Positions 4,371 to 62,441 of a stretch of 64,000 nucleotides of DNA are shown one piece after another. The DNA lies in assembly GCA_945861535.1 (NCBI GenBank), contig CAMAUZ010000008.1, positions 1-64,000 of the forward strand. Direction: 5' to 3'. This DNA is from Akkermansia muciniphila. GTDB lineage: Bacteria; Verrucomicrobiota; Verrucomicrobiia; Limisphaerales; BJHT01. Position 1 is the first letter of the stretch; the number at the start of each line of letters is the position of its first letter. The position numbers and the translations under genes are program-made. The notes beneath the pieces are model-generated. The model was not told where the DNA came from. It saw only the letters and a list, made by a program, of their open reading frames with translations, and did no database searches.

Positions 4371-5969
4371 CTATTTCTTCGCGGCGGCGGGCCGCGTCGT
4401 GAGGGGAAAATCATCCGTGCGAAAGGGCGAGGCCGGCAGGCCGATGCGGTTCCAGAGATTGCCCGTCGGATAGTCCGCCCAGCCGTAGCGGACGGCGACC
4501 GGGCGCTTGATGTCGGGATGGCTCACGGTGACGACGTTGGTGCCGGTGATGAGCGCCTTGCCCCAGACGAACTTCTGATCGTCGCCGCAAATGGCGAAGC
4601 CGCGGAGCGGGCCGCCGCGCGCGTCGAGGCCGGTGCCGAAGTAGTTGAAGGTGACCAGCGCCTTGTCGTTTTTGACTGAGAGACTGCGCAAGGTGGGACC
4701 GGAGAAAATCAGCCGCTCGCCGTACGCGATGCCGCGCGCCGCAATGGCCAGGCGCGCGCCGACCGGTTCCTTTTGCACGGGATGGACGTCGTTCTCATCA
4801 CCCGCGTCGGTGATGACCACGGTGCCGGCTTTGGGCAGGCGGGCGGCAAGAATCTGGGCCTCGCGAAGTTCCGCCCAGGCGCTCGGGCCGGGCTGCTCCT
4901 GGATTTTGCCGAAGGGCGCGAGCTGGACGGTGAGGAACGTGAAGTTGCCCTGCTCGACGACCTTGCTGGCATTGCGCCAGTCGGTGCGCCAGGTGCGGAT
5001 CAGCTCGGGCAGCAGCGTGCGGTATTGCCAGGCCCGGCTGACGTTGGCCTCGCCCTGGTACCACACGGCGCCGCGCAGGGCGACGGGGACCAAGGGGGAG
5101 ATCATGCCGTGGTACAGTTCGCCGACTTTCCACGGCGGCGTGGGCGCGGGTTGCGCGGGTTTACGGCCGTCGCGTGCGAGTTCGTCGGCCTCGCGGTCGT
5201 AGCGGGCCTTGGCTTCTTTGTAGCGCTGATACAACTGCGGATAGGCGTCGATCAGCTCGCGGGCGAGTTCGGGCTGGCCCTCGAGGGCCTTGCGGTTCAT
5301 CCACGCCTCCGCCGTGGAGCCGCCCCACGAGGCCTGGATCAAGCCGACCGGCGTGTTGAGCGACTTCTGCAAATCGCGCCCGAAGAAAAAGGCGACGGCG
5401 GAAAAATTACTCGTCGTCAGCGCGTTGGCCGGCACCCACTGGGAACTGATCTCGCTGAGCGGCGCGTCGGCCTTGACGCGGGGCACGAAGAAGAGGCGGA
5501 GATTGGGAATGGGATTGGTGGCGGCCTCGATGGCGGCGGGGCCGTTTTCGGCGCGATGGAGGGGAAAATCCATGTTGGACTGCCCGCTGCACAACCAGAC
5601 TTCGCCGACGACGACGTTCTGCACCTGCACTTTGTTTTTGCCCTCGGCGGTGAGGACATCGGGCGTGGCGTTGCCGAGCAGCGGGGAGAGTTTCACCGAC
5701 CATTTGCCGTCCTTGGCCGTGGCCTTGACCGTCTGCCCCTGAAACTTGACGACGATATTTTCCCCGGTCTCGGCGGTGCCCCAGACGGTCACGGGCATCC
5801 CGCGTTGCAGCACCATGTTGTCCGTGAAGAGCGCGTGAAGCCGCACATCGGCGCGGGCGGCGGGCGCGGCGACCGCGAGGATTCCCAAGGCGAGCAGCAA
5901 CGCGCAAACCGTGCCGACGGCCCGCGGCAGACGGCGTCGGCGGTGGAGATGAGGTGGAGAAAGACTCAT
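4371..5969 (-). CDS. Secreted sialate O-acetylesterase-like SGNH esterase
   Basis: The 532-residue product carries a signal peptide (MSLSPPHLHRRRRLPRAVG then a hydrophobic stretch, cleavage near AARA-DVRL). The domain has the SASA/SGNH features: Ser nucleophile in GEVWLCSGQSNMDFPL, the WYQGEANVSR block, and the Asp/His pair in a DAGDENDVHPVQKEPVG block. The N-terminal LHALFTDNMVLQRGMPVTVWGTAE is the usual beta-domain start of these enzymes, which remove acetyl groups from sugars in polysaccharide degradation. A longer in-frame start at 6092 would put 41 charged residues before the signal peptide; the ATG at 5969 is preferred. It belongs with the second sialate-type esterase at 51.4 kb and the DUF4838 protein as a glycan-degradation theme. 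Confidence 0.9.
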   Translation of the reverse strand: MSLSPPHLHRRRRLPRAVGTVCALLLALGILAVAAPAARADVRLHALFTDNMVLQRGMPVTVWGTAETGENIVVKFQGQTVKATAKDGKWSVKLSPLLGNATPDVLTAEGKNKVQVQNVVVGEVWLCSGQSNMDFPLHRAENGPAAIEAATNPIPNLRLFFVPRVKADAPLSEISSQWVPANALTTSNFSAVAFFFGRDLQKSLNTPVGLIQASWGGSTAEAWMNRKALEGQPELARELIDAYPQLYQRYKEAKARYDREADELARDGRKPAQPAPTPPWKVGELYHGMISPLVPVALRGAVWYQGEANVSRAWQYRTLLPELIRTWRTDWRNASKVVEQGNFTFLTVQLAPFGKIQEQPGPSAWAELREAQILAARLPKAGTVVITDAGDENDVHPVQKEPVGARLAIAARGIAYGERLIFSGPTLRSLSVKNDKALVTFNYFGTGLDARGGPLRGFAICGDDQKFVWGKALITGTNVVTVSHPDIKRPVAVRYGWADYPTGNLWNRIGLPASPFRTDDFPLTTRPAAAKK

Positions 5970-55802: not shown

Positions 55803-56076
55803 GCGTGAGTGGGAAAACCCCGGCGACCGGCCGCGTGAGGGCACGCGGCTTACAAGATTAGGCCGAACAACCAGCCACCTGTCGGCCCGGAGCCCTCACC
55901 GGGCGAGCTTTCAAACAAGCGCTTAACTAAGGGCTATTCAGGTCTGCCCCCCTTTATGGGTACGACTTGGATTGGCTTTTCGCTGACGCCGTCAAACGGC
56001 AAAGCCTTCTAGCCAGCCGGTCGTGAACCCGCAAACGAAGTGCCGCAAGTCGTGATCGGTAGCGTGGGCGACTCAC

Positions 56077-57204
56077 TCAATAGGAATCTCCTTTGTAGGT
56101 TCGGGAAAACACCTTGCCGCTCAACGGATCGACGAAGTCGTTGCGGTCAACAGTGTATTCCCGACCTCCCTTTGACAAAGTGCGCCCACTCACCTTTCGA
56201 GGTGAGCCATGTCCCGTTGTCAAGATACCGCCGTGACCGCCCGCCAATTCCTCCGCAATCGCCTTGCCAATCGGCAAGCCAGTGAGGTTTTCTACCCAAA
56301 GCCACTGGCCGTTTGGGTTGCACTCAAAGAAGACCGCCTCGCCTGATTTCGTAATCGCGATGTCGAAACACCCGAAGTTCAATCCAAATGCCTCCATGTA
56401 TGCTTGTAGCTTTTCGTGAAGTTCCGGGCACTCGCACGCGACATGGTTGAGGCTCTGAATGTCGAAGCGACAGTCCTCATCGGTAAGTTGGCCGGGGCGT
56501 GGTTCGATGCGGCAGGTAAAGACCCGTTTGCCAACGCAGGTAATCCTCAACTCGTGACGCTTCTCCACAAACTCTTGGAACTGCGTTGGTAGGTGGCGAA
56601 CCTTGTCGCGGAACTCTTCAAGCTCGGCGCGGGTGATTCGGCGGGTGAAAATCCCAAACTGCCTTGTTTGTCCATCAACATCCTGCGTCACGTTCAGCGC
56701 GCCCAAACTCTTTATCGCCAAGTCCCCACCGATTTCATCGGCAAAGCGAAGCGCAGTCTCGGCGTCATTCGTCACCAGAGTTCGAGGTGTCTTGAAGCCG
56801 AGCCGGTTGGCAATTTGCAGTTGAAGCAGTTTGCGATGAGCGATCCGTGTTTCGAATGGGTCGTTGATCCAGCGGACATGGCGCAGCATGGCATAAACCC
56901 CTTGGAAGATTTCGTTGAACTCGGCCTCGACGTATTCGTGTGAACCTTCGTCCAGCGCGAGGTGGGAGAGATTCACCGGATCGGGTTTCCTGAACCAGAC
57001 ACAACTGATTTTTTGCAGGTTAACTGTCCTGCCGCTGTCCCGGAGGTGGATGATTCCAGAGCCGACCGTGGGCGTAATCGTGATGTCAGCATTGGTCGCC
57101 AGATCTTCCGTGTTGAGCCTGGTCCATTGGATGCCGGCGGCATCAAGATGTTGAGACACGGCTTCAACGTGTCCGTCCGTTTTGCTTGTGATGATTAAAA
57201 TCAT
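56077..57204 (-). CDS. ATP-grasp peptide maturase (MvdC/MvdD-like; graspetide synthetase)
   Basis: 375 residues. N-terminal domain MILIITSKTDGHVEAVSQHLDAAGIQWTRLNTEDL is typical of the MvdC/MvdD family that makes ester or amide macrocycles between Ser/Thr/Lys and Asp/Glu side chains of a precursor peptide. The ATP-grasp core shows HRKLLQLQIANRLGFKTPRTLVTND, the ATP-binding LAIKSLG block, and the Mg-binding FFECNPNGQWLWVE (E-x-N-P-x-G). It follows the candidate precursor gene by 84 bases with a strong hairpin between. ATG at 57204. The family assignment is firm at superfamily level; the product class depends on the precursor being real. Confidence 0.85.
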   Translation of the reverse strand: MILIITSKTDGHVEAVSQHLDAAGIQWTRLNTEDLATNADITITPTVGSGIIHLRDSGRTVNLQKISCVWFRKPDPVNLSHLALDEGSHEYVEAEFNEIFQGVYAMLRHVRWINDPFETRIAHRKLLQLQIANRLGFKTPRTLVTNDAETALRFADEIGGDLAIKSLGALNVTQDVDGQTRQFGIFTRRITRAELEEFRDKVRHLPTQFQEFVEKRHELRITCVGKRVFTCRIEPRPGQLTDEDCRFDIQSLNHVACECPELHEKLQAYMEAFGLNFGCFDIAITKSGEAVFFECNPNGQWLWVENLTGLPIGKAIAEELAGGHGGILTTGHGSPRKVSGRTLSKGGREYTVDRNDFVDPLSGKVFSRTYKGDSY

Positions 57205-57228
57205 AAAATTCGTGGCTGGTTGGAATTG

Positions 57229-57260
57229 CCTGCCGCTGCCGGAAATCCGGCAGCGGCAGG
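57229..57260 (-). terminator. Perfect hairpin between precursor and maturase genes (attenuator or processing site)
   Basis: CCTGCCGCTGCCGG and CCGGCAGCGGCAGG form a perfect 14-bp stem with a 4-base loop. No U-tract follows, so it is more likely a partial terminator, RNA stabiliser or processing site that lets the precursor be made in excess over the maturase. Confidence 0.7.
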
Positions 57261-57287
57261 GTTGGTTCTCAGGTGTCCTTCTTCAGA

Positions 57288-57515
57288 CTAGTCGTCTTTT
57301 TTGGTGTCGGACTTTGACGAGAAGAAGCGCGCGACTGATTCGTCTTCACGACTCGTCGAGAAGTCCCTGCCGCTTCGGAACGTGGCCAATTGTGTGGCCG
57401 GGTTGTAGTTGAACGACGCGCCCGTTTCCGCACTGCTTATCGCGAGTGCGAACGGAAGAGCCGCGATCAACGGGATCGCTGCGTCGGTTTTGATGGCGAG
57501 CTTGGTCGCATTCAT
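57288..57515 (-). CDS. Candidate graspetide (omega-ester peptide) precursor
   Basis: 75 residues from the ATG at 57515. The leader has IPLIAALPFALAISS, whose PFALA resembles the PF-x-L-R helix motif of graspetide leaders, then FNYNPATQLATF, which resembles the Y-D/N-P-x-x-Q element of ATP-grasp target peptides as I remember it. The C-terminal core (residues about 48-75) is rich in Ser/Thr/Lys donors and Asp/Glu acceptors: RDFSTSREDES and SSKSDTKKDD. No Cys. It is directly upstream of the ATP-grasp gene on the same strand. It lies inside a longer open frame to 58184 that mostly shadows the divergent gene. Confidence 0.7.
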   Translation of the reverse strand: MNATKLAIKTDAAIPLIAALPFALAISSAETGASFNYNPATQLATFRSGRDFSTSREDESVARFFSSKSDTKKDD

Positions 57516-57628
57516 GGTATTTACTTTTTGTGCTTTACGTTCTGAGCATTGTGCCCAGCTTGGGCGCACACGCGCTTCCAAGTGACACGACGATACGCCC
57601 CGTATGTGCGCTACGGCTACGGGCGACA

Positions 57629-57646
57629 TAGGCAAGTTTAGGCAAG
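57629..57646. promoter_or_regulatory. Direct repeat TAGGCAAG-TT-TAGGCAAG, candidate operator
   Basis: Two identical 8-mers are spaced 10 bases apart (one helical turn) in the divergent region between the precursor gene (minus) and the HTH-like gene (plus). A GCCC-AGCTT-GGGC hairpin (57552-57564) and an imperfect CGCCCCGTA...TACGGGCG palindrome (57595-57624) lie alongside. A binding site for the divergent HTH-like protein is inferred. Confidence 0.45.
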
Positions 57647-57674
57647 CAATTCGCCCACAAATGGGACGGTACCA

Positions 57675-58622
57675 ATGAGCCAGAATGAGCATGACAAAGT
57701 CAGTCTCCCGCCCGGTTGGTGGGGGAGGCTTCTTACTTTCTGTAAGAAAAAATGGGAACACAACCACAAGGCGGGCGATGCTTTCGATATTTACGAATTC
57801 ACGAAAATCAGTCGGAGGACAATTTCCACGGCGCGTAGATCCAATCAATTCACCGAAGCAATATTCACGATTTTGGTTAGTGAGGTTGGATGTGACACGC
57901 CTGACGATCTGCTTCGAATCTTGAGTCCTCCTCAACCCACTTCTGTTTTCTTTCCACCGCCAGCACCGATTGAAGAGAAAATCCCAGCCGACTTCGTTGG
58001 CGAGGCTCTCGCGAGCGTATCCTCTTTGCCGGATTATGTGGCACGTGACATTGCCACGCAAAATGAGCTTTACCGGCTTTGGCAAATTGACTGTGCAGCC
58101 TATGGAGAACGTTCGATAACTTTTGAACAATTCCTTGCTCAATGGCTGGCATTTCCGCATTTCCCAAAAGCCCTGTTTCATCAAAATGAAATTGCAGCTG
58201 CAATTGGAATCTTGCCCACAACGGAAGCGCGGATGAAAGATTTTGCGGAAGGCCGCGTCAGCGAAGCAAGCTTACAAGACGATCCTCTGGGTCAATTCAT
58301 GATTGGAAATGTCAACGCGTGGCTAATTGATGGCATGGTGCGAAATCCAAAGTTCCCAATGGTCGCGACGCGCGAGCTTGTCTGTGCCAGCATTCTCTCA
58401 TGGATTAACGACGGACTAATTAGTTACCCGCTGAATATTTACGCAATCGGACAAAACCGGCGTGGAATGAATTTGATAACTCGTGCCGGGTTCAAGTTGC
58501 TAAAAACAGCAGAATCTTTGCCTGATGGTATGCCATTTTATGTGATGAACGTGGAATCAGAAGCGAAGCTGCTTCGTTTGGTGCTTGAGCGGCTGCGGTA
58601 TTATGCGAGCATTGCGCCATGA
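57675..58622 (+). CDS. Unknown protein: N-terminal HTH-like part, C-terminal GNAT-like part
   Basis: 315 residues, no clear family. Residues about 35-83 (FDIYEFTKISRRTISTARRSNQFTEAIFTILVSEVGCDTPDDLLRIL) look like an XRE-type helix-turn-helix. A Pro-rich linker (PPQPTSVFFPPPAPIEE) follows. The C-terminal about 100 residues end in GMNLITRAGFKLLKTAESLPDGMPFYVMNV, a pattern like the last strands of acetyltransferases (G-x2-L-x2-RAGF). No acetyl-CoA R-x2-G-x-G/A loop is visible, so it could be a degenerate sensor domain. It is transcribed divergently from the peptide precursor and coupled to the next GNAT gene (ATGA). AT-richer than the chromosome, consistent with acquisition. Confidence 0.6.
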   Translation: MSQNEHDKVSLPPGWWGRLLTFCKKKWEHNHKAGDAFDIYEFTKISRRTISTARRSNQFTEAIFTILVSEVGCDTPDDLLRILSPPQPTSVFFPPPAPIEEKIPADFVGEALASVSSLPDYVARDIATQNELYRLWQIDCAAYGERSITFEQFLAQWLAFPHFPKALFHQNEIAAAIGILPTTEARMKDFAEGRVSEASLQDDPLGQFMIGNVNAWLIDGMVRNPKFPMVATRELVCASILSWINDGLISYPLNIYAIGQNRRGMNLITRAGFKLLKTAESLPDGMPFYVMNVESEAKLLRLVLERLRYYASIAP

Positions 58623-59113
58623 ATGTGCATCTCATCCAATCTCGCGACATCATGCTCTTTCTCCCCGTAATCCAAGAGGTTGAATTAGGCGACCGCTTTT
58701 TGCTTTCGATGTTGCATTGGTGTGGCATCGGAAAACGTGCGAGTGAACTCCAGCTTTGGGAAGTATATCTCACCATGGATGATGCAATCCCTGTTGGTGT
58801 GTGTGGGTTGTATCAGAACCCGGGAATGCCGACTCATCTGGCTTGGCTGTCATGGCTCGGAATCCGGGAATCATTTCGTCAGCGCGGTGTCGGTTCTGCC
58901 ATGCTTGCATCGCTTGTAAACCTCGCGCAATCAAAGCATGGATTTTCAGAGCTTTGGGTATACACCGACGCCAAAGATAAAAGCGTCCACCGGTTCTACG
59001 AGCGCGCAGGATTTCAGTTTGTGGGGGACGGCGAAAGCATTGCTCCCGATGTCGTCATGTCTCCAACGGATAAAGTGTTCCGCTTAAGTCTTGATAGTGC
59101 CAGCACCGAATAG
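58619..59113 (+). CDS. GNAT-family N-acetyltransferase
   Basis: 164 residues with the acetyl-CoA binding loop FRQRGVGSAML (R/Q-x2-G-x-G/A) about residues 86-96, preceded by the strand AWLSWLGIRESFRQ and followed by ELWVYTDAKDKSVHRFYERAGFQFVG, all typical of GNAT. Substrate unknown. Its ATG overlaps the previous stop. Next to a graspetide locus it could modify the peptide or provide self-protection, but this is only position-based. Confidence 0.85.
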   Translation: MNVHLIQSRDIMLFLPVIQEVELGDRFLLSMLHWCGIGKRASELQLWEVYLTMDDAIPVGVCGLYQNPGMPTHLAWLSWLGIRESFRQRGVGSAMLASLVNLAQSKHGFSELWVYTDAKDKSVHRFYERAGFQFVGDGESIAPDVVMSPTDKVFRLSLDSASTE

Positions 59114-59524: not shown

Positions 59525-59845
59525 TCACACCCAGCCGTGGCTGGCGATAATTTTGCGGATGATTTCACGCTGGCGCGCGAGCGACACCTTGCCTCGCAGG
59601 GCAGTCAGATCGTGGCGGGGAATCGAGTAAATGAGATCACAGCGGCAAAGGGTGCTCCAATCGAGGCCGTCCGCTCCATTGAGCACCACCTCGTGAGCAC
59701 CCGGTGTATGCCCCGCTCGCAGGGTGGTGCAGAGCAGCACCTCCACCGTTTCTTTGCGCTCCGCCCGCAGAGGATGGGAGACGATCACCGCCGGGTGTCC
59801 CCCGATCCCTGGAAAGGTATAGGTCCCAATCTCCCACTGGTTCAT
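59525..59845 (-). CDS. MazF/PemK-like type II toxin
   Basis: 106 residues: NQWEIGTYTFPGIGGHPAVIVSHPL at the N-terminus (the usual G-D/E-I-W-x-F ... G-H/R-P-x-V-I start of MazF/PemK folds), VEVLLCTTLRAG, EVVLNGADGLDWSTLCRCDLIYSIPRHDL, and a C-terminal helix. Members cleave mRNA. The start overlaps the antitoxin stop by 4 bases (ATGA). Confidence 0.8.
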   Translation of the reverse strand: MNQWEIGTYTFPGIGGHPAVIVSHPLRAERKETVEVLLCTTLRAGHTPGAHEVVLNGADGLDWSTLCRCDLIYSIPRHDLTALRGKVSLARQREIIRKIIASHGWV

Positions 59846-60084
59846 ACCTCAGGCCGCGCACGCCCGGCCACCGCCCGCTCCATCCGCTCCCATTTCGGGT
59901 CCGGCGCATAAACCAGCGCGGCCTCGGCGGTGGTCAAGGGCGCTGGGTTCAAGTAGCCCACCGCCTCGTCAGCCTCCAACCGTCGCACCGCCTCCGTGAC
60001 CGCTTCTTCTGGCGAAGCAAACCGCCCAGCACTGACGAGGCGGGAGAGGAAGCTGGTCTGTTCGGCTGGCAAGGAGATCGTCAT
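59842..60084 (-). CDS. Ribbon-helix-helix-like antitoxin
   Basis: 80 residues: MTISLPAEQTSFLSRLVSAGRFASPEEAVTEAVRRLEADE resembles ParD/CopG antitoxins (beta strand then two helices) and the C-terminal tail (APDPKWERMERAVAGRARP) should wrap the toxin. It is located immediately upstream of and coupled to the MazF-like toxin, an uncommon ParD + MazF mix. Confidence 0.8.
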   Translation of the reverse strand: MTISLPAEQTSFLSRLVSAGRFASPEEAVTEAVRRLEADEAVGYLNPAPLTTAEAALVYAPDPKWERMERAVAGRARPEV

Positions 60085-60382
60085 AACTCTAAATCGAATG
60101 ATCGGACGCTGCCATCAGCGAGAGATGTGGTCAAGAATCCCAGCGCAGCCCAAATCAGCGCAGTTCCCCAATCCAACGGGAGCGTGTGGCGGAAGAGCAC
60201 CCGGTCTCAATCCGTCGCCGCCAGTCGGAAGACATCGCGAATCTTGCTGCGGATGGCGCGACGTCTTTCTTGGCTCACGCGCCCGCGCCGGCCGAAAAGC
60301 TTCGCTGACTCGACGAGCTAGATGGTTTTGCAGTCACAAAAGGTTTCTCAATCGAACCCATCCCTGCCGTTAAGAGCGTGTT

Positions 60383-60739
60383 TTAAAAGGGGTAGCGCGG
60401 GCGACCCGCCCGCCCCGGTCGGCGACTCACCGACCGGAATGGCGGAGCGCAACTTGACGAAGCGGCCGTCTTTATTGGCTCGAAGCGTTTCTCCCGTTCC
60501 GTCGGGCGGGTCGCCCGCCGGCACAGGCAAGTCGCCCGTGCTGCCCGGAGACGACTTTCCAAACAGGCTCTAAACATTACCTCGTAGGGTCTGGGTGAGC
60601 GGCTTTGGCGGTGGCTCGTGCAATAGAGGACATTCCCAAACGAAGCGTGCGCACAGACGTCCGGGTGAGAAATCAGGATGACCGAATGCTCTCCTTTGCC
60701 GGGAAAATCAAAGCGCCAGATGTCAAACTGGTCTTTCAC
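60383..60739 (-). pseudogene. MazF/PemK-like toxin disrupted by a palindromic repeat element
   Basis: The first about 55 residues (MKDQFDIWRFDFPGKGEHSVILISHPDVCAHASFGNVLYCTSHRQSRSPRPYEVM) are a recognisable MazF/PemK-type N-terminal half. From about 60570 on, the frame reads a GC-rich palindromic element and ends without the second half of the domain. The GTG start at 60739 overlaps the antitoxin stop. The toxin is therefore inactive unless the tail is tolerated. Confidence 0.75.
60385..60575. repeat. Palindromic repeat element inserted in toxin gene
   Basis: Arms GCGGGCGACCCGCCCG (60398-60413) and CGGGCGGGTCGCCCGC (60503-60518) are exact reverse complements; CGGTCGGCGACTCACCGACCG lies inside. 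Ends are near AGAGC...TTTTAAAA and TTTCCAAACAGGCTCTAAAC, where GTTTTAAAA/GGAAA pieces may mark its edges. Confidence 0.75.
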
Positions 60740-60966
60740 TCCGGCAATTGCAGAGAACTGCTCCGGGCCAGCGCCGCCAGTTCAGCGTTGTTTTCCTCGG
60801 TGATATACTTGCGGAGGCTGCCCTTGGGGAAGGGTTCCTTGGTTACAGGCTCCACCAACGTCAGCGTGACATGGCCACCACCATGATTCTCGTAGGCGAA
60901 AACCTGCCGGGGTTTTGCGTCCGGCATCCGAATGCGCTGCTGGTCATCAACGGTCAGTGTTTTCAC
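60736..60966 (-). CDS. AbrB-like antitoxin of the disrupted toxin
   Basis: Starting at the GTG 60966 the product begins VKTLTVDDQQRIRMPDAKPRQVFAYENHGGGHVTLTLVEP, a swapped-hairpin AbrB-type DNA-binding domain, followed by a short tail to bind the toxin. About 76 residues. An open frame reaches 61068 but its extra N-terminus overlaps repeat copy B. The stop is coupled to the toxin start. Confidence 0.7.
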   Translation of the reverse strand: MKTLTVDDQQRIRMPDAKPRQVFAYENHGGGHVTLTLVEPVTKEPFPKGSLRKYITEENNAELAALARSSSLQLPE

Positions 60967-61022
60967 GCTGGCAAAATTCCATGGCGGCAGAATGACTTCA
61001 AGCGTGGAGGAATCCGACAACG

Positions 61023-61176
61023 GGTCAGTCCCAAAGGTTGACGTGAAGTCTTGATTCCGGGCAGTCACCGTCGCCGCCGGGCTTTGGCCCGCGGATTCGA
61101 CACATTCGTCCCCGCGCCCCTGCTAGCGCCCGCGCCACCCATTTGAGCGTCATCGTCGTCTCCCGGCACGCTTTGT
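61023..61176. repeat. Diverged long repeat, copy B
   Basis: GGTCAGTCCCAAAGGTTGACGTGAAGTCTTG...GCGTCATCGTCGTCTCCCGGCACG; see copy A at 59262. It lies in the upstream region of the AbrB-like antitoxin. Confidence 0.75.
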
Positions 61177-61323
61177 CTTCGGCGATACTTGGGGCGCAGG
61201 ATGACTTGCTATTTCTTCTACCAAAGTATCCCGGACCGGCGAATGCGGGTGCGGGAGTATCTCGATAACTGCGGGTAAACCCGCGCCCCGTGCGGGACGC
61301 GGGTTTTGCCCGCGGACTATCGA

Positions 61324-61551
61324 TTATCCGATGAACGGCCCATCGGCTGGCAACTGGAATTCCTTGCGGGCGGCGGCGTTGGCCTTGGTGGTGTAGGGAT
61401 ATTCCGCGTCGGCGGCGAACTGGATGGTGATGCGGGCGTCGGTGGCGGTCTTGACGAGGACGGTGAGGTCGGTGCGCTCATCGGTGGCGTCGGGTTGGGC
61501 ATCGCCCCCGCTAAACCGGATCCATGCAGTTGAAAACGCGAACGAAACCAC
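61324..61551 (-). other. Possible coding fragment, unrecognised
   Basis: The 75-residue frame ends in DLTVLVKTATDARITIQFAADAEYPYTTKANAAARKEFQLPADGPFIG and looks protein-like, but no start signal or family was recognised. It could be another gene-tail fragment. The rest of 61177-61563 shows nothing. Confidence 0.3.
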
Positions 61552-61563
61552 AGCCCGGAGTGG

Positions 61564-61992
61564 TTATGGCGGGACGGGAATCGTTCCTGTCCCGATCAAA
61601 TGGTACCCGACGACCTGCACGCCCGGCTCGTTCTCGAAATGCTTCACGTTGCGGGTGAGGACAGGGAGGTTTTCGAGGCGGGCGGTCGCGGCGAGCCAGA
61701 GGTCGGCGACGCCAATTGTGCGTCCGGCACGCTGGAGCGCGGCGGCAACCTCGGCGTAGGCGAGCAGGTGGCGGCGGACGAGGCGAAGTCGGGGGGACGG
61801 ACGGAGAAAGCGGTGTACGGCAGCGGGCGGAACGTGGAGATAGACGGCACCATGCAGGAACTCGGCCTCCATCATCCAGAGCAGCACCGGGCGGTAACCG
61901 GTGCGCTTGGCATCGAGATCGGCGAGGCGTTCCGGGTGCCGACGGCAGCGCCAGAGATCAATGAAGACCGTGGTGTCGGCTAGGATTTCCAG
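61564..61992 (-). CDS. VapC-like PIN-domain toxin, probable CTG start
   Basis: The normal PIN opening ADTTVFIDLWR lies upstream of the first GTG (61887), so the gene must start earlier; the best candidate is CTG at 61990-61992 (LEILADTTVFIDLW), giving 142 residues. Conserved acidic residues are present: Asp in ILADTTVFID, Glu in MMEAEF, Asp in GVADLWLAA, and NVKHFE near the end. It overlaps the antitoxin stop by 13 bases. An RNase role is known for the family. Confidence 0.7.
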   Translation of the reverse strand: MEILADTTVFIDLWRCRRHPERLADLDAKRTGYRPVLLWMMEAEFLHGAVYLHVPPAAVHRFLRPSPRLRLVRRHLLAYAEVAAALQRAGRTIGVADLWLAATARLENLPVLTRNVKHFENEPGVQVVGYHLIGTGTIPVPP

Positions 61993-62366
61993 GGATCGCG
62001 CGCCGGAATGGGGTGCGCAAGTTCGCGCTCCCAGGCGGCGAACTCGGCGTTGCTCAAGTCGGGAAGCGTGTCAGCGCAGGCGAGCAACTCAGCAAGCGTG
62101 GCTTTGCCCGCCGTCGGCACGCTTCCCCGCTCCCATTCGCGTTCCCGGTCGTAGTCTTCGCAATGCTCCCGATCTTCTTTGGTGGCCGGCGGGAGCGACG
62201 CGCGCATCTTCTCGGTCCCAGCCAATCCGCCGCTCTCGGATTTGGAACGCGGGACTTTCCCCAGCGTGGCGAGGGCCGCGCGGACCAGTTCATCGGGGTT
62301 GTGAATGTTCGTCGCCGCCTCCGCCGCGCGGAGCAGGGCTTCGTCAATTTCGACGGTGATGCTCAT
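61980..62366 (-). CDS. VapB-like antitoxin
   Basis: 128 residues from ATG 62366: MSITVEIDEALLRAAEAATNIHNPDELVRAALATLGKV has the strand-helix-helix look of VapB antitoxins. An acidic C-terminal tail (EHCEDYDREREWERG, LPDLSNAEFAAWERELAHP) would bind the PIN toxin. Upstream frame to 62429 is not needed. Coupled to the toxin by overlap. Confidence 0.75.
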   Translation of the reverse strand: MSITVEIDEALLRAAEAATNIHNPDELVRAALATLGKVPRSKSESGGLAGTEKMRASLPPATKEDREHCEDYDREREWERGSVPTAGKATLAELLACADTLPDLSNAEFAAWERELAHPIPARDPWKS

Positions 62367-62441
62367 GGCAGCAGGGTATCGCGCGGGCGCGGGCATTGCC
62401 AGCAGGGTTCCCATGGCTTTAATCCCCAACTACAAAATTGG

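Follow-up and report, generated by a model that had tools for sequence, protein, structure and literature searches.

The window, by which we mean the whole 64,000-nucleotide stretch of DNA that was analysed, very probably carries a minimal graspetide operon, a reading drawn from sequence comparison in which synthetase family, structure homologues, synteny and precursor conservation all agree. The locus consists of two genes: a 75-residue precursor ORF comes first and an MvdC/MvdD-type ATP-grasp gene follows closely behind it, with a hairpin between them (Table 1). An earlier note on this DNA had proposed a compact graspetide locus from an ATP-grasp gene with an E-x-N-P-x-G motif, an adjacent 75-residue ORF with leader features, a perfect 14-bp hairpin between the two genes and AT-richer DNA than the surroundings, and each of these elements was borne out, the GC content being 0.49–0.59 over the locus and mostly 0.58–0.73 around it.

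Table 1. Features of the locus and its divergent neighbours, with positions in the window.
Feature	Positions	Strand	Basis
ATP-grasp graspetide synthetase, 375 aa	56077..57204	-	TIGR04187 242 bits, PF21068 46.8 bits, PDB relatives
Synthetase C-terminal tail, ~residues 320-375	56077..56247	-	pairwise alignment; absent from L013
E294-x-N-P-x-G motif of synthetase	56308..56325	-	aligned with structure-known relatives
Intergenic hairpin, precursor/synthetase	57229..57260	-	z -5.9; single genome copy; kept in L013
Graspetide precursor gene (probable), 75 aa, ATG start	57288..57515	-	homologous ORF upstream of synthetase in L013, L113, L014
Predicted core, residues 52-75	57291..57362	-	reactive S53, S55, D58, E59, S60, S67, D70, K73, D74, D75
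Putative leader recognition region, residues 15-42 (P15 ... PFALA ... Y37-N-P-x2-Q42)	57390..57473	-	conservation in ten precursors
Divergent 315-aa protein, no family assigned	57675..58622	+	no Pfam, NCBIfam, PHROG match; G267 homologue beside GNAT, 27% identity
GNAT acetyltransferase, start overlaps 315-aa gene stop	58619..59113	+	PF00583 49.9 bits; G267 homologue 46% identity

The synthetase motif reads E294-C-N-P-N-G299, and both the E-x-N-P-x-G and ELR motifs aligned with structure-known relatives, namely 5ig8 and 5ig9 (MdnB and MdnC), 7m4s (AMdnB), 7mgv (CdnC) and 9bou. Among profile models the best match was TIGR04187 (242 bits against a curated cut-off of 350 bits), followed by MvdC (182 bits) and MvdD (173 bits), each under its curated cut-off, while the Pfam MvdD pre-ATP-grasp domain (PF21068) was detected above cut-off. 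A synthetase of the MvdC/MvdD/TIGR04187 kind is present, its homology strong though below the named-subfamily cut-offs, and the enzyme groups with graspetide ligases and not with an unrelated ligase family. That the protein is instead a RimK-like ligase adding amino acids to another target, the small ORF being unrelated to it, is highly improbable, as a weak RimK family match (32 bits) stands against the three scores above and against the retention of the small ORF beside the enzyme in three other genomes. The synthetase gene is single copy in its own genome and did not turn up in G001, the only genome of the same genus that was searched; across 320 genomes of the order it was detected in four, a number that counts the window's own genome and one distant relative (31%).

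The same gene pair was recovered elsewhere, close synthetase homologues having the neighbouring ORF as well. A homologous precursor lies directly upstream of an 89%-identical synthetase in L013 (MAG WY5.bin88; same order, another family), of a 58%-identical synthetase in L113 (genome G842; a third family of the same order) and of a 47%-identical synthetase in L014, an actinobacterial contig (Dietzia sp. E1). In the synthetase tree the window, L013 and L113 formed a clade with support of 100/98, which L014 joined at a weaker 82/55, and with L021 added the set reached 95/86. Since L014 belongs to another phylum, its presence in this group suggests transfer or a contaminating contig. The Dietzia synthetase is followed by a JmjC_2 cupin gene (L014 3684–4973; PF08007, 104.9 bits), a candidate hydroxylase for that peptide. 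Additionally, a precursor with a repeated core (GTxTxTxxxAExxDSD) was observed directly before a distant ATP-grasp gene in genome G034 (L097 8882–10215), a multi-core graspetide within the window's own class, and in G833, a genome from the window's order, an M43 metallopeptidase gene directly precedes a distant ATP-grasp gene (L114 4864–7344).

Precursor comparisons gave further evidence of protein-level conservation. The leader features were located at residues 21–25 (PFALA) and 35–42 (FNYNPATQ), and the window precursor aligned with that of L014 at z 10.6, with 0 of 1000 shuffles equally good; the L013 precursor aligned with that of L019, a Chitinophagales MAG, at z 6.9, and the latter with cyanobacterial L016 at z 8.8. 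Between the window and L013 the dN/dS value was 0.073 for the enzyme and 0.35 for the precursor, the precursor value being based on few changes (14.5 synonymous and 18.5 non-synonymous). Residues M1, P15, L16, A18, A19, P21, F35, Y37, Q42, S60, D70, D74 and D75 were invariant in the four close precursors. Ten precursors, drawn from the order of the window and from five further named phyla, were also aligned, and here P15, Y37 and D70 were invariant and A18, Q42 and D74 nearly so; this alignment is to be read as a guide and not as proof of homology for every row, since some rows are weakly alike (L021 against the window, z 1.8). The role of graspetide leaders and a Pro-hydrophobic motif, Phhx(1,2)h, are described in a published survey (PMC8939145), and this motif is present in the window as P15-L-I and P21-F-A-L. 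From these residues we infer that the leader region binds the enzyme.

The earlier note had also described a core rich in Ser/Thr/Lys and Asp/Glu, and conservation of these residues was found. Of the 24 core columns, ten hold to one reactive class (S/T/C/K or D/E) across the four close precursors, one residue of the L113 core having been dropped to hold register in this count; in 20,000 core shuffles such columns averaged 0.6 and never exceeded 5. Because the shuffles take no account of common ancestry, the result is evidence of a conserved register and not of selection alone. At residue 55 the window has Ser and the three relatives have Cys, and the conserved pattern can be written as S-x-[SC]-x2-[DE]2-S-x6-[ST]-x2-D-x2-[KS]-D-D, in two blocks.

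In graspetide chemistry, as set out in a recent survey (PMC13097080), an acid side chain is phosphorylated by the enzyme and a Ser, Thr or Lys is guided to attack it. For the window, the product of the precursor gene at 57515 would be bound by the ATP-grasp enzyme through its leader (P15 ... PFALA ... Y37-N-x3-Q42), core Asp/Glu residues would be phosphorylated (candidates D58, E59, D70, D74 and D75), and attack by core Ser/Thr/Lys residues (candidates S53, S60, S67 and K73) would close rings of the lactone or lactam type, of which there would probably be two or three. Leader removal and export would fall to proteins encoded elsewhere. Points against this reading are that the locus holds neither a protease gene nor a transporter gene, that few changes underlie the precursor dN/dS, and that the synthetase stays under the curated subfamily cut-offs and has an unusual C-terminal tail.

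The C-terminus of the synthetase varies among close relatives, with a tail of ~55 residues in the window, none in the 89%-identical L013 enzyme and another tail in L113. An origin of this tail as repeated DNA was rejected, the repeated part covering only about 55.81–55.92 kb; the interspersed repeat there, of ~100 bases (55809–55923), is matched by four other genomic copies of 74–81% identity. An ISL3-family transposase gene (L013 1228–2330) abuts precursor codon 11 in L013, and for this reason the insertion sequence seems to have replaced the original precursor start on that contig. A formerly working graspetide operon that is decaying and being lost here would accord with homology between the window and L013 that starts only at precursor codon 11 and stops before the synthetase stop codon, with a tail that has no counterpart, with the interruption of the L013 copy and with the same-genus genome in which no copy was found. 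Such decay is nevertheless improbable, as the precursor and synthetase frames are both intact and their dN/dS values are 0.35 and 0.073, and the minimal operon remains our reading.

The intergenic hairpin has a 14-bp stem and a 4-nt loop, and the folding energy of the intergenic region was -35.6 in comparison to -18.7 ± 2.9 in dinucleotide shuffles. It was rejected as a genome-wide repeat, with one copy in the 7.94-Mb genome, and an Rfam scan of 55–60.5 kb gave zero matches. L013 keeps the stem with one compensatory double change (T-A to C-G), and strong stems of unrelated sequence occupy the same place in L113 (-34.5 kcal/mol, a raw energy without shuffles), L019 (z -5.7), L021 (z -3.4) and L015 (z -4.3); no stem was found between precursor and synthetase in L014 and L018. 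A U-rich tract of the kind seen at intrinsic terminators comes after the L019 stem, whereas the window stem has no such tract. Because the hairpin recurs in place with unrelated stems, it may set the precursor/enzyme ratio, and its best reading, towards which we lean slightly, is an attenuator or stability element favouring precursor over enzyme. It would do so by lowering read-through or by protecting the upstream mRNA.

Two further genes lie divergently beside the operon, and the earlier note had described them as an HTH/GNAT-like gene and a GNAT gene with a possible part in tailoring or self-protection. Both genes are present and the second is a clear GNAT, but the first has no family match. 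One homologue of the 315-residue protein carries a sub-threshold HTH_3 match, and this is the sole HTH hint for it; no HTH match was found in the N-terminus of the window protein or in the 500-residue divergent gene of L113. A real HTH_3 gene does occur in L019, but in view of these two negative results the idea of a constant divergent HTH neighbour was set aside as no more than a hint. The predicted structure of the 315-residue protein (mean pLDDT 40) was too poor to use, and no such protein was found in the viral contigs or plasmids searched.

MdnD acetylates microviridin, and a comparable part for the window pair, with the GNAT acting on the modified peptide or shielding the host and the 315-residue protein as regulator of the shared promoter region, would agree with their adjacent, divergent position in the same AT-richer stretch, with a different GNAT gene between precursor and synthetase in L037 and with group 7 clusters, which often hold an acetyltransferase according to PMC13097080. 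We consider this unlikely, as the same pair lies side by side in genome G267 (27% and 46% identical), where the ATP-grasp search was empty, and no relative of either gene was found beside L113, L014 or the other ATP-grasp loci examined; L013 is uninformative here, its contig being short and IS-disrupted upstream. Its absence from the sister loci, together with its occurrence in G267 without an ATP-grasp match, means that a role of the pair in tailoring or self-protection is not supported, and the two genes are probably a separate unit outside the pathway. In L037, a Hyphomonadaceae MAG, the GNAT gene (4481–4996) separates a graspetide-like precursor from its synthetase, so that acetylation in the wider graspetide-like set is possible. 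Toxin-antitoxin pieces also cluster in the window (59525–62429), including a PemK/MazF-like gene (59525–59845, minus strand) preceded by a small gene, a PIN-domain gene (61564–61887, minus strand) and a VapB-like gene (61980–62429, minus strand).

Comparison with known systems placed the locus near several graspetide types. The best-scoring family for the synthetase was SAV_5884/tgmB (TIGR04187 synthetase, TIGR04186 precursor; mainly Actinomycetota), which shares the Pro-hydrophobic leader motif, Y-[DN]-x3-Q and an Asp-rich core end, but the synthetase reached only 242 of 350 bits, the precursor had no TIGR04186 match and the core pattern differs, so that the pair falls below the curated cut-offs of both models. 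Pairs from Arthrospira and Roseofilum (L015–L018) and from L019, whose synthetases form a clade neighbouring that of the window, share the leader LPFAM/LPFTL ... Y-[DN]-x3-Q and the core end D-x3-D-[DE], and in L019 and L015 the intergenic hairpin too; their synthetases, however, are only 32–34% identical and the cyanobacterial nucleophile region is TSTSxxxST. Microviridins (MdnB/MdnC) have homologous synthetases and a PF-type leader motif, but the window has one synthetase and not two, neither a transporter nor MdnD in conserved place, and no TxKxPSD in its precursor, which agrees with what was claimed earlier and separates it from the microviridins (group 1). In fuscimiditide, Asp18 and Asp22 are partnered by Thr7 and Thr3 (PMC12291112), and the window resembles the fuscimiditide/graspimiditide type (group 13) in having two core Asp residues four apart near the C terminus (D70/D74 against Asp18/Asp22; PMC12291112). 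It differs from fuscimiditide in nucleophile spacing (53, 60, 67) and from the graspimiditides in lacking an isoaspartyl methyltransferase gene beside the synthetase, none being found in 55.1–59.1 kb.

The window precursor gave zero matches to NCBIfam or Pfam models, and among three close precursor relatives NCBIfam coverage is confined to TIGR04186, for the actinobacterial tgm type. The core of the window precursor fits none of the patterns compared, namely TxKxPSD, the fuscimiditide spacing and TxxxTxxDxxxxDD (PMC8939145). Published surveys list 43 groups, with predicted graspetides numbering about 21,600 (PMC13097080), and 174 graspetide precursor families (PMC8939145). Since all NCBIfam and Pfam precursor models fail to match, the window precursor probably belongs to a small core group that is new, although this may already stand among those 43 groups or 174 families. 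The earlier proposal of a core pattern that is new and has two reactive clusters is supported as regards conservation and as regards the difference from the motifs compared. More tentatively, and with our expectation leaning somewhat against it, the locus may represent an unlisted group, known from three families within the order and from a single actinobacterial contig, whose two-block core would give a novel ring topology and whose synthesis would be balanced by the attenuator that recurs with unrelated stems.

With 43 groups and about 21,600 predictions already published (PMC13097080), a further group is a useful addition and not a surprise. The locus would add a small, cleanly conserved graspetide group with the acid and nucleophile candidates named above, and the recurring hairpin with unrelated stems is a clue to how the precursor/enzyme ratio may be set in minimal clusters.
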